This document shows positions 40,971 through 44,441 of a DNA stretch of 64,000 nt, piece after piece. Every line of letters begins with the position of its first letter. Positions within the stretch are counted from its first letter, which is position 1. The position numbers were made by a program, and so were the translations under genes. Under the pieces are notes generated by a model. That model saw only the letters and a list, made by a program, of their open reading frames with translations, was not told the DNA's origin and searched no databases. The DNA is from Maritalea myrionectae DSM 19524 (lineage in GTDB: Bacteria > Pseudomonadota > Alphaproteobacteria > Rhizobiales > Devosiaceae): NCBI RefSeq assembly GCF_000423365.1, contig NZ_AUHV01000002.1, positions 729,270-793,269 on the forward strand, read 5' to 3'.

Positions 40971-41379
40971 TTTTTTCCGAGGTCTGCTTTGAGCCCTTTG
41001 TCGCCATTGAATTTTGTTTCCTGATGGGCAATTCCGGCCCAAAGCTGCCGTTGGCCATTGCCACTCGATGCTGCATCTGCAGCCAGCATTGCCGACATTC
41101 GCCGCGCACACACAAAGCCTGAAGGCATATAAGTGATAGAGGAGTGCTTGCGATGACCCGAACGCATTGCACCGTACTCGACTATGCGGAGCAGATGGTC
41201 CGTGTGCCGTAAGCGTCGAAAGCGAGCGTTGGCATTGACAGCGATGCATGGAAAACGTGAATAAGTATCCCAGATGCCGCCCTTTTAGAGCACATCCTAC
41301 CGAGCGGGGTTTTATCCTGTGTCCGAGGACAAAGGGCGCCCGGTTGTCATGATAGATGCGAGATTTTGATATATTTTAG

Positions 41380-41404
41380 TAGATCAATATCACCATATGA
41401 TCTA
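41380..41404. promoter_or_regulatory. Candidate HipB operator 1
   Basis: TAGATCA (41380-41386) and TGATCTA (41398-41404) are perfect 7-base inverted arms with 11 bases between, a centre spacing suited to a dimeric HTH repressor. Located 92 bases before hipB. Confidence 0.45.
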
Positions 41405-41441
41405 TATTAGCATATCGAATTTGATTGCTGCGTTGAAAGTG

Positions 41442-41461
41442 TGATACATTATTCTATATCA
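41442..41461. promoter_or_regulatory. Candidate HipB operator 2 / hipBA promoter
   Basis: TGATA (41442-41446) and TATCA (41457-41461) form a second dyad with a 10-base spacer. It overlaps the place expected for a -10 box downstream of TTGATT (41421-41426), so repressor binding would block transcription. Weak evidence, by position and symmetry only. Confidence 0.35.
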
Positions 41462-41496
41462 AAAGTGGCTCTTGATGTGTGAAAGTAGATCGGAAT

Positions 41497-42096
41497 ATGA
41501 GTTACGCCACCGAAAACATCGCCGCTTCCCTGAAGTCGGCACGTGAAAACAAGGGGTTAAGCCAAAGAGAGCTTAGCGCTCGATCAGGCGTGCCGCAATC
41601 GCATATCTCAAAGATTGAGAGCAACGCAGTCGATCTGCGGCTTTCGAGTCTTGCTTCACTTGCCCATGCGCTTGACCTTGAACTGACGATGATACCAAGA
41701 AAATCGGCGCCGGCAGTCAGATCGATTGTGCGCAGTACGGGCAGTCACAAACCTCAAAGCAACAACGATGCACTGCGCGAGCTTGCGCGCGCGCAACGTG
41801 CTCTTGATGCGCTCCCCAAGGCTTTGCATGAGAACTCTGCGATGGAAACGCTACAAAGACAATTTCAAGAAATGAATAATTTCCGCAACATCTTGCAAGA
41901 AACTGACGCCATTAGGAATATACGCAGCGCGATCGAAGCAATTGAGAATTCTGGGGGGCACAAGAACCTAGAAAAAATTGCCAAAGATGCTCAACGTCTC
42001 CGCAATATGTTGGCGCACAGTATGCCGTCACACAAGATCAACGAACTAGCCAGTAGACCGGCCTACAGCCTAGACGAGGATGACAGTGATGGCTGA
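41497..42096 (+). CDS. HipB-like antitoxin/regulator with long C-terminal extension
   Basis: 199 residues. Residues 10-65 are an XRE-type helix-turn-helix (SLKSARENKGLSQRELSARS, then PQSHISKIE). Classical HipB is about 90 residues; here a helical, charged region of ~130 residues follows (90-175, LRELARAQRALDALPKAL and further amphipathic stretches), ending in an acidic tail EDDSDG. ATG 41497 is used; GTG 41479 is possible. It overlaps hipA by 8 bases, the usual coupling of antitoxin and toxin. The role of the extension is unknown. Confidence 0.85.
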   Translation: MSYATENIAASLKSARENKGLSQRELSARSGVPQSHISKIESNAVDLRLSSLASLAHALDLELTMIPRKSAPAVRSIVRSTGSHKPQSNNDALRELARAQRALDALPKALHENSAMETLQRQFQEMNNFRNILQETDAIRNIRSAIEAIENSGGHKNLEKIAKDAQRLRNMLAHSMPSHKINELASRPAYSLDEDDSDG

Positions 42097-43321
42097 TGTT
42101 TCTGTTCTAAATGTTGAGCTTTATGGGGAGGCTATCGGCACGTTGACACGCGTCGCGGGGGATCGCAGCCTTTTCGCGTTCAACGAAGAGTATATTGAAA
42201 ACTCTGACCGCCCGACACTTAGCTTGTTCTTCAAGGATGAGCTTGGCGAGTTGCGCACGGAATTTAAACCTGTCCAAAAGCAGGTCATGCCGTTCTTTTC
42301 CAACCTATTGCCGGAGGGGCACTTGCGCAAGTACCTCGCAGAGCAAGCAGGGGTGAATGCTGAACGAGAATTCTTCTTGCTTTGGGCCTTAGGGCGCGAC
42401 CTTCCTGGCGCTATTACAATCAAACCGGCGGACGGCGAAATCTGGCCACCGGAGGCCGCGCATGTAGGTGGCGAAGACGCGCCAAAATCCAAAGACAACA
42501 TGCTTCGGTTCTCTCTTGCCGGTGTTCAATTGAAATTCTCAGCCGTTGAGGGCGCGAGTGGTGGGCTGACTATTCCCGCGTCGGGCATCGGCGGTGACTG
42601 GATCGTCAAGCTGCCGTCACGGGAATACATGGGTGTCCCTGAAAACGAATTCTCAATGATGCGGCTGGCCAGCATGCTCGGCATGGACGTGCCTCGTATT
42701 GATCTGGTCGACATCGATAGTATCGCAAATCTGCCAGATGGCACTGATCGCTTTGGAACAAAGGCCTTCGTTATCGAACGCTTTGACCGGCACCCCAGCG
42801 GAGAGCGGGTGCATATCGAAGACTTCGCGCAAGTCTTTGGTGTCTACGGCGAAGACAAATATAAAAAGGCGAGCATGCGCAACATTGCTGCCGTCATTGG
42901 AGCAGAAGGGTCGGATGAAGACATCCGCGAGTTCGTACGCCGCTTGACGTTCAGCACGCTGATTGGCAATGGGGACATGCATCTTAAGAACTGGTCGCTG
43001 ATCTATCCTGATCGACGCACTGCCGCCCTTTCGCCAGCCTATGATTTTGTATCGACAGTTCCATACATTAAGGGTGACAGCTTCGCACTGAACTACAGCC
43101 GCGTGCGAGATTTTGCTGCCTTTGATGAAGATGAAATCTCCCATCTCGCCGCGAAAGCAGCGTTGCCCGGCAAAATGGTTCTTGAAGTGGCACGAGAAAC
43201 CACGAGCGATTTTGCATCGCTCTGGAAGCGTGAAAAATATGCGTTGCCGATGCGCGACGACGTTAGGGCGGCGATTGATGCACTACTGCCAATCCTCCCT
43301 TTGATGAAAGAACACCTTTAG
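42089..43321 (+). CDS. hipA: HipA family serine/threonine kinase toxin
   Basis: 410 residues. N-terminal HipA subdomain (ELYGEAIGTLTRVAGDR), LPEGHLR, a Ser-containing loop SLAGVQLKFS (Ser142, the region that is autophosphorylated in E. coli HipA), catalytic Asp296 in GNGDMHLKNWS and metal-binding Asp319 in AYDFVST. All kinase motifs are present, so it should be active. E. coli HipA phosphorylates GltX and HipT-type relatives other tRNA synthetases; the target here is unknown. ATG 42089 has GAGGA upstream; ATG 42080 is in frame too. Confidence 0.92.
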   Translation: MADVSVLNVELYGEAIGTLTRVAGDRSLFAFNEEYIENSDRPTLSLFFKDELGELRTEFKPVQKQVMPFFSNLLPEGHLRKYLAEQAGVNAEREFFLLWALGRDLPGAITIKPADGEIWPPEAAHVGGEDAPKSKDNMLRFSLAGVQLKFSAVEGASGGLTIPASGIGGDWIVKLPSREYMGVPENEFSMMRLASMLGMDVPRIDLVDIDSIANLPDGTDRFGTKAFVIERFDRHPSGERVHIEDFAQVFGVYGEDKYKKASMRNIAAVIGAEGSDEDIREFVRRLTFSTLIGNGDMHLKNWSLIYPDRRTAALSPAYDFVSTVPYIKGDSFALNYSRVRDFAAFDEDEISHLAAKAALPGKMVLEVARETTSDFASLWKREKYALPMRDDVRAAIDALLPILPLMKEHL

Positions 43322-43631
43322 AAAGCCAATTTTATGAAGATTTTCCCAAGTTGCGAAGTAAAAATTCTATCGGAATGCCCAAGCGAAGGTCCGAAATGTC
43401 CGCATAGCTGTCATTCCATCATAAGCTGCTATTCTATGGCTTTCATCAGGTGATCTCATCAATAGAGATATATCAGCGTTTCCTTTTTGGTCGTGCCGGA
43501 TGGGCCAATCACAGTGCCGCGATTTTGGCGCCTGTGCGGCGTCACGGCATATGAACAATAGAGCGCCATTTTGCCGAAAATGGCCGGAGGTGGTATTCTT
43601 GGACCACCATAGGGCGTCAGGGGGAGGCGAA
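43322..43631. other. 310-base stretch after hipA
   Basis: No gene recognised. Base composition changes from A+T rich near hipA to the local average toward the methyltransferase gene. No terminator hairpin with T-tract, direct repeat or integrase remnant noticed. An open frame reaches back from the methyltransferase to 43500 but the ribosome binding site favours the later start. Confidence 0.5.
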
Positions 43632-44441
43632 ATGGGGAACGAGACTGAATCTGTTATTGATCATTATACCCGTCATAATCTGATGCAACGCATCCGCGAT
43701 GCCTTGCGATCAGCCGGGCACGACCCGGAAAATCCCACGCGGGAGATGCTGGCGGAACTCGACCATTTGCACGGCGGTGGCTTCACCACAACCGAAACGC
43801 AGGTGGCGCTGGCCGAAATTCCAACGGGCTGTCACGTGCTTGATGCGGGCTGTGGCATTGGCGGGCCAAGCCGGTTTCTGGCGGGGCAACATGGGTGCAC
43901 AGTTGAGGGCATCGATTTAACGCCGGAATATATCGACGTGGCCACGCAGTTAAATGAAATGGTTGGGCTTGACGACAAAATCTCCTTGTCTGTCGGCAGC
44001 GTGACGGAGCTGCCTTATGACAATGAAAGGTTCGATGCGGTGTTATGCCAGAATGTCTCCATGAATGTTTCCGACAAGGAAACCCTGTTCTGCGAGGCTT
44101 TCCGGGTGCTCAAACCGGGCGGCATCTATACCATCAGCCATATTGCTGAAGGCCCTAACGCGCCGCCCATCTACCCGCTGCCCTGGGCGCGCACGTCGGA
44201 TGGGAGCTTTCTGGAAACGCCGGAACGCATTTTGATGCTGCTCAAGCAAGCGGGATTTGAAGCGATTGAAGATCGCGCCGCCACCGCACCATCGCAACCC
44301 GGCGGCGGTCCCCAGCCAGGGACAATCGGAGCAATTCCCGCAATGGGCGATGATATGCCGGAGCGCACTGGCAACAGCGCACGATCCATTGAACAAGGGC
44401 GGCTGGTGGCGATGATGGTGGTCGCGCATCGACCCCAATAA
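43632..44441 (+). CDS. Class I SAM-dependent methyltransferase
   Basis: 269 residues. SAM-binding motif I VLDAGCGIGGPSRFLA near residue 70, acidic motif VEGIDLTPEY, motif GSVTELPYDNERFDAVLCQN, and the post-motif FRVLKPGGIYTISH. The general plan resembles sarcosine/dimethylglycine and ubiquinone-type methyltransferases (UbiE/Methyltransf_11); a link to betaine synthesis is possible but unsupported. The C-terminal part is Pro/Gly rich (PSQPGGGPQPG). ATG 43632 is preceded by GGGGAGGCGA. Substrate unknown. Confidence 0.85.
   Translation: MGNETESVIDHYTRHNLMQRIRDALRSAGHDPENPTREMLAELDHLHGGGFTTTETQVALAEIPTGCHVLDAGCGIGGPSRFLAGQHGCTVEGIDLTPEYIDVATQLNEMVGLDDKISLSVGSVTELPYDNERFDAVLCQNVSMNVSDKETLFCEAFRVLKPGGIYTISHIAEGPNAPPIYPLPWARTSDGSFLETPERILMLLKQAGFEAIEDRAATAPSQPGGGPQPGTIGAIPAMGDDMPERTGNSARSIEQGRLVAMMVVAHRPQ

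Follow-up and report, generated by a model that had tools for sequence, protein, structure and literature searches.

The window analysed here, 64,000 nucleotides (nt) of the alphaproteobacterium Maritalea myrionectae DSM 19524 (contig NZ_AUHV01000002.1, positions 729,270 to 793,269 of the forward strand), carries a hipBA toxin-antitoxin (TA) module whose antitoxin, HipB, is 199 amino acids (aa) long and contains a predicted helical domain inserted between a helix-turn-helix (HTH) domain and a C-terminal tail. As judged from its sequence, the locus is a true HipBA module, a kind of system that is already known; what is new is the HipB variant with the inserted helical domain, which represents an established but unannotated HipB subclass, sparse but wide in its distribution. 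We propose, with moderate confidence, that this is a mobile, autoregulated type II HipBA in which HipB would act through three parts, with the HTH on four operators, the tail on the HipA kinase and the insert as a regulatory module. The genes and the parts of HipB are the following (A4 is an alignment of 27 diverse HipB extensions; dN/dS is the ratio of nonsynonymous to synonymous substitution rates; ORF, open reading frame):

41497..42096, forward strand: hipB, long-form antitoxin/repressor of 199 aa (ORF calls, relatives)
42089..43321, forward strand: hipA, Ser/Thr kinase toxin of 410 aa (PF07804 at 2.2e-48, PF13657 at 5.6e-21; motifs S142, D296 and D319)
41530..41688, forward strand: HTH_3 domain, HipB residues 12-64 (Pfam PF01381 at 3.6e-13)
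41752..42021, forward strand: predicted inserted four-helix domain, HipB residues 86-175 (AlphaFold2 model of 82-180; dN/dS 0.07-0.26)
42001..42018, forward strand: R-N-x-x-x-H motif, R169-H174 (R in 26/27, N in 25/27 and H in 24/27 rows of A4)
42055..42093, forward strand: C-terminal tail RPAYSLDEDDSDG, residues 187-199, probable HipA-docking element (A189, Y190 and L192 in 27/27 rows of A4)

The HipBA module that a first-pass annotation had recognised in this DNA is a genuine pair, with the HTH gene upstream of hipA and overlapping it by 8 nt (42089 versus 42096), and with the HipA domains intact. Within the same 410-aa chain, HipA_C (PF07804) scores 165 bits against a cut-off of 30.5, and Couple_hipA (PF13657) 75 bits against a cut-off of 22.5. 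The kinase residues stand where that annotation had placed them, SLAGVQ starting at Ser142, Asp296 lying within NGDMHLKN and Asp319 within YDFV, and the catalytic/magnesium-binding Asp and the loop Ser align to HipT chains. The best PDB relatives found by phmmer are HipT-type core kinases (79 bits), as in the HipBST systems of E. coli O127 and Legionella, with E. coli HipA at 66 bits; unlike in HipBST, the HipA of the window is whole, with Couple_hipA in the same chain, and there is no third gene between or beside the pair and no HipS gene. The host genome holds a single HipA match, the window's own. By its sequence this kinase would be toxic and would be neutralised by HipB. An in-frame GTG at 41479 is an alternative hipB start that would fall within the fourth operator; ATG 41497 is taken here.

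HipB is ordered as HTH, four-helix domain of ~90 residues and tail R-P-A-Y-x-L-D-E/D (RPAYxLDEDD). Its context was provided by a survey of 91 HipA loci of the class (L001 included; 60 HipA places added to 30 given, with incomplete, interrupted and low-coverage places and G003:C60 excluded), 86 of which yielded a HipA ORF. HTH partners were sought by the family profile at E 0.01, so that divergent ones are missed, and lengths refer to ORFs counted from their first start codon. The oversized HipB pointed out by the first-pass annotation stands out in this survey, since the HTH partners detected for less related kinases (33 of 78 loci) measure 71-142 aa; at the remaining 45, the profile built from this HipB family found no HTH upstream. 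Eight loci have a HipA scoring at least 400 in phmmer against that of the window, 7 of them with the upstream HTH gene in view. At all 7 HipB ends in the tail motif P-x-[YH]-x-L-[DEN], which is absent from all 33 other loci where an upstream HTH gene is visible. Four of these seven HipBs, the window's included, are 199-230 aa long, and three are 98-112 aa (L082, L088, L117). The short form is laid out as HTH, PRKALPAV, short linker and tail, and in two further short members of the family the C-terminus reads RPAHSLDNEDE (L053, 138 aa) and SPAYSLDNDDE (L055, 116 aa). Because the short HipBs keep the tail without the domain, the ~90-residue domain is read as an insert between HTH and tail. It has been gained or lost repeatedly, since the HipA tree of 39 rows, three of them with very long branches, requires 3 long/short HipB changes, two of which are forced by the starred branches (L046, L096, L106 and L056, the distant L018, L031, L095, L119 and L137, and L053, L138 and L157, whose HipA is not in view, were excluded from the tree).

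The extension might have proved to be a common annotated domain, which the first-pass annotation had named as the result that would speak against it. HipB residues 66-199 are covered by no Pfam or NCBIfam model above cut-off, and the NCBIfam HipB models remain below their curated cut-offs (NF007271, 30.2 versus 79; TIGR03070, 38.2 versus 71.65). The same annotation had described this region as ~130 charged helical residues with an acidic tail; the helical part is here predicted to form a compact domain, and a separate conserved motif is the better description of the tail. An AlphaFold2 model of residues 82-180, based on 10 alignment rows, has a predicted local distance difference test score (pLDDT) of 85.7 and a predicted template modelling score of 0.76, with helices at 86-104, 108-111, 114-127, 136-152 and 155-175. 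The full-length model is poor (pLDDT 58) and is used solely for the lack of a helix past residue 175. On the cropped model the extension looks like a separate folded domain. An extension consisting only of coiled coil was also considered and was discarded, as that model is a compact four-helix domain. Foldseek returned zero matches to the domain model at E<=0.001, and the best rows of the VIA fold comparison were generic bundles with Z of 9.7 and lower.

Conservation was measured on HipBs of at least 185 aa (33 rows; the frameshifted L056 and the duplicates L046, L096 and L106 excluded), from which A4 was obtained by removing the close relatives L002, L006, L051, L054, L154 and L167. From residue 66 on, the extension measures 127-157 aa among relatives, and 19 of the 26 A4 relatives are at most 40% identical to that of the window. 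Across residues 80-182, the three motif residues R169, N170 and H174 rank highest, and then R98 (22/27). For hipB, the pairwise dN/dS lies at 0.02-0.07 for the HTH, 0.07-0.26 for the domain and 0-0.13 for the tail, against 0.16-0.89 for the linker from domain to tail; these values, from short regions of 8 pairs with the linker defined in 4, are rough. By this measure the domain is under purifying selection and the linker is less constrained. That clustered polar residues are kept in a helical bundle that otherwise changes fast suggests a site of binding or catalysis, and the four-helix domain with this polar site (R169, N170, H174, perhaps R98) would constitute the regulatory module of HipB. 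The insert may sense a ligand or partner, or may brace the HipB2-HipA2 complex, and would in this way set the timing of HipA release.

A simpler role, which we consider possible though rather unlikely, is that of a passive spacer or an additional bundle for dimerisation, which would set the distance of the tail or steady the HipB dimer without any sensing. This fits the fact that related kinases are served by both long and short HipBs, as well as the variable length, the low identity and the generic four-helix fold of the extension. On the other hand, conservation in the insert is highest at clustered polar residues, and not at positions of hydrophobic packing.

Far less probable is an RNA-acting insert, in which a divergent, permuted or truncated HEPN-like RNase or RNA-binding module, with R169, N170 and H174 (and R98) as active site, would cleave or bind RNA via R-N-x3-H and read an RNA or nucleotide signal (e.g., phage-induced RNA), coupling the state of RNA to the freeing or holding of HipA. 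If true, the HEPN and Hip toxin classes would be joined in one operon. The idea stems from a likeness to HEPN RNases (HepT, DUF4145, CARF-HEPN/Csm6), namely the R-N-x3-H near a helix end. According to the portion of PMC3710099 consulted, the HEPN signature is Rx4-6H, usually with N, D or H following R, and DUF4145 belongs to HEPN. An HEPN-like R-[NDHK]-x3-H is present in 24 of 27 A4 rows. Two PADLOC CARF_HEPN models match 9 and 6 of the 27 members (best 8.5e-5) and none of 10 reversed, trimmed controls, among which another CARF_HEPN model matches one at 0.02; these controls are 10 of the 27 rows, one still with its tail, and do not form a matched set. Six HEPN-type Pfam families are each matched by 2 members, below cut-off. 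With HepT, DUF4145 and Apea sets compiled for this analysis, hhalign aligns the extension to DUF4145 with a score of 25.2 (column-shuffle maximum 14.0, reached by 0/40), to HepT with 19.3 over only 13 columns round the motif (shuffle maximum 12.9) and to Apea with 17.2 (shuffle maximum 13.8).

Against this, the unrelated Hpt control scores 18.0, also above all shuffles (maximum 17.3, 0/40 reaching it), and no curated HEPN cut-off is reached, the window's best being HEPN_Apea at 16.8 versus 24.4 bits. Com_YlbF is matched by 7 of the 27 members (best 0.0013), more than any HEPN-type Pfam family, and families outside HEPN give equally good single-member E-values (EzrA 1.9e-4, SP_VI 2.2e-4, Csm2 3.5e-4). 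HEPN domains continue with a further helix after the one that bears Rx4-6H, and the HepT, DUF4145 and Apea sequences compared here extend well beyond the motif; in HipB, R-N-x3-H stands at the end of the domain's last helix, followed only by a short linker and the tail. The fusion to an HTH and a HipA-side tail is a further difference from HEPN RNases. None of the best 50 VIA rows is an HEPN entry, which is not decisive. HEPN membership was rejected because curated cut-offs are unreached and the post-motif helix is missing, and it is retained solely as a rival of low probability.

The first-pass annotation had seen the long extension as a possible separate domain, which the predicted fold supports, with kinase inhibition, oligomerisation or the sensing of RNA or protein as its possible roles. 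Contact with the kinase is more likely to be made by the last ~12 residues of HipB, common to the short HipBs of the same kinase group, than by the helical extension. The tail RPAYxLDEDD would dock on HipA and help to keep the kinase inactive, much as has been suggested for E. coli HipB, where a hydrophobic C-terminal residue is proposed to extend into the cleft that separates N-subdomain 1 from the core (PMC10627512, in the part available). Two loci with moderately related HipAs (L032, L110) have 92-aa HipBs with acidic tails in which a Trp (EPLW, DPW) replaces PAYxL; these tails possibly bridge PAYxL and the E. coli-type Trp tail.

Upstream of hipB, four sites match an 18-base-pair (bp) palindrome, GATNTA-N6-TANATC, with 10 fixed bases:

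41368..41385, no strand assigned: predicted operator 1, GATATATTTTAGTAGATC, first of four (10/10 fixed bases)
41399..41416, no strand assigned: predicted operator 2, GATCTATATTAGCATATC (9/10)
41443..41460, no strand assigned: predicted operator 3, GATACATTATTCTATATC (9/10; conserved in alignment A2)
41474..41491, no strand assigned: predicted operator 4, GATGTGTGAAAGTAGATC, immediately 5' of the hipB start (9/10)

The sites are spaced 31/44/31 bp, at -129, -98, -54 and -23 relative to the hipB ATG, and shuffled upstream regions are expected to contain 0.24 sites of at least 8/10 each. Palindromic sites were thus correctly noticed in the first-pass annotation, which counted two dyads where there are four sites: its 41380-41404 combines the half-sites with which sites 1 and 2 face each other, and its 41442-41461 is site 3. 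A scan for promoter consensus found none on the hipBA strand, and no more than in shuffles; operator 3 may overlap the -10 region. The HTH dimer would bind the four operators as two pairs and repress the operon. The array recurs at 31/43-48/31 in L002-L006, L008, L011, L012, L155, L156 and L157, is found amid extra overlapping matches in L007 and L138, and is partial in L154, L013, L014 and others. E. coli hipBA has TATCC-N8-GGATA at -134, -106, -67 and -39, with a spacing of 28/39/28. In sequence terms, the two-pair layout, with ~3 helical turns within pairs and ~4 between them, is the same in both systems despite the differing operator sequence and HipB architecture. Caulobacter crescentus hipBA1 and hipBA2, which are likewise alphaproteobacterial HipBA modules, are reported to have three operator sites each (PMC8545095, in the part available).

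The surroundings of the pair speak for mobility. Only one of five congeners (G498) has any HipA gene, and two (G495, G496) hold other ORFs between rmuC and a pyridoxamine-oxidase-like gene and no hipBA-like DNA, and for these reasons the module looks acquired. DNA homology to L002, L003, L004 and L011, whose surroundings differ from those of the window, starts at 41236-41237 and stops at 43304-43327. The shared block is a ~2.1-kilobase (kb) unit comprising the operators, hipBA and, upstream of them, the disrupted 3' end of a small ORF:

41237..41290, forward strand: degenerate 3'-end relic of a small upstream ORF, equal to the end of a 95-aa ORF in L002, with its frame broken in the window

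Acquisition, as suggested by the first-pass annotation, is borne out by the congener comparison and by this block; the composition shift invoked for it is less general, as the G+C content dips in the intergenic DNA (0.47-0.48) and hipB (~0.50) and not in hipA (0.52-0.55), which is similar to the neighbouring genes. The gene-free gaps of 526 and 310 nt are correct, provided that the downstream methyltransferase begins at ATG 43632. Near hipBA, plasmid neighbours include DUF736 (L156) and a zincin-like metallopeptidase (L159), and in L002 and L004 an ORF of ~300 aa, putatively ArdC-like and bearing a zincin-like HELTH motif, is among the upstream neighbours.

On present sequence records the module is mobile, being found on alphaproteobacterial plasmids and chromosomes. 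HipB matches 81 of 72,556 plasmid records, 72 of them over at least 80% of the protein and 39 typed conjugative; 69 of the 81 fall in ten genera, all alphaproteobacterial (Sinorhizobium, Agrobacterium, Rhizobium, Bradyrhizobium, Sulfitobacter and others). A scan of genome contigs yielded 8 relatives of 46-94% identity, with matches spanning residues 1 to 192-199. In the class, the extension profile matches at least 8 of 385 genomes, nearly over its whole length in five (G000, G331, G022, G182, G075); in the family, near full-length HipB matches occur in 7 of 136; and in the phylum the A5 profile is matched near full length in at least 6 of 349 (cut at E 1e-12), the other 23 matching genomes showing the HTH part only. 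These searches score the best candidates of a loose first pass (10 per genome for the class, 9 for the phylum), and the counts are lower bounds. None of 50,697 phage records (INPHARED) matches HipB, and of three further viral scans two were empty and one gave an HTH-only match. An IMG/VR contig classed as viral (L138 5001-5585) holds a long HipB of 45% identity at the contig edge.

Copies in several states were met. One of the seven family matches is broken (G446:C2:318161-319875), its hipB being frameshifted and its hipA split in two and carrying a stop. On plasmid p2SUD7 of Sulfitobacter sp. D7 (L157 3001-5339), a long hipB is directly followed by an IS6 transposase, with no HipA in the 6.6 kb fetched, and is perhaps an orphan antitoxin after insertion. 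The idea that the window's own locus is in decay, as what is left of an old mobile fragment in which HipB serves only as a local repressor, draws on the upstream ORF remnant and on such broken or disrupted copies in relatives (G446, L157), but is very unlikely given that both genes are intact, dN/dS (computed for hipB only) is low, and the kinase motifs and four operators are retained. Directly 3' of hipBA, within the variable stretch from rmuC to the pyridoxamine-oxidase-like gene, lies an S-adenosylmethionine-dependent methyltransferase gene (43632-44441), and no DNA similar to it was found at the corresponding site of G495 and G496.

The three-part model of an autoregulated, mobile HipBA is favoured because the HipA motifs are intact, the operator array is kept in many relatives and the tail separates close loci from the others, and also because the domain is predicted to be well folded, is under purifying selection with R169, N170 and H174 as its most conserved residues, and is carried on plasmids. 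For the insert itself, a sensor or clamp is favoured, followed by a spacer, with an RNA-acting module least likely. Several observations weigh against this model. The insert is dispensable over evolution, as the long/short changes on the kinase tree indicate; the R-N-x3-H motif is lost in 3 of 27 A4 rows; and the fold says little, because four-helix bundles are common. No site of the operator consensus occurs in the rhizobial/sphingomonad relatives L158, L162, L163 and L165, the short-HipB loci L082, L088 and L117 show one consensus site each, and two 8/10 matches to the consensus lie upstream of E. coli hipB as well. Removal of the 16-residue tail of E. coli HipB left HipA and DNA affinity unchanged and affected degradation by Lon (PMC3376134, in the part available). 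Since tail loss acted there on Lon degradation, the tail here could be a degron, which is the main argument against docking.

Compared with E. coli K-12 hipBA, in which HipA is a kinase of GltX and HipB has 88 aa, the module shares gene order, an HTH-type HipB, HipA kinase motifs with the N-subdomain and four operators in two pairs; it differs in the inserted domain of ~90 residues, in its distant HipA, in its operator sequence and in a PAYxLDEDD tail where E. coli has a C-terminal Trp. A second comparison is offered by HipAD (DS-6), described in the accessible part of PMC13092281 as a kinase related to HipA that acts in phage defence together with a DUF3037/DUF1829 partner. Both systems combine a HipA-type kinase with a partner protein under a predicted TA logic; the partner of HipAD, by the same account, lacks HipB similarity, unlike the HTH HipB found here. 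By this analogy, a role of the present HipBA in phage defence is possible.

No such HipB is described in the titles and abstract openings of the PMC literature on HipA/HipB, among the matches listed (subscription papers and supplements lie outside that scope), and the abstract and consulted sections of Gerdes et al. 2021 (PMC8262856) do not mention a long HipB. A long hipB-hipA pair on a Sulfitobacter faviae plasmid (L155 4001-5825) is missing from the part of the TA table of PMC10221251 examined, in which a HipAB with a HipB of ~84 aa is named at other coordinates. Standard TA predictors may overlook HipBs of the long form.

In this family, DNA binding, a toxin-side tail and an optional inserted domain stand apart as three functions of HipB, which the small model proteins combine in one. 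Kinases that are related to each other have partner HipBs that either contain or lack this domain, which offers natural pairs for testing what triggers the release of HipA, a debated point, and the conserved R-N-x3-H site provides a direct target for point changes.

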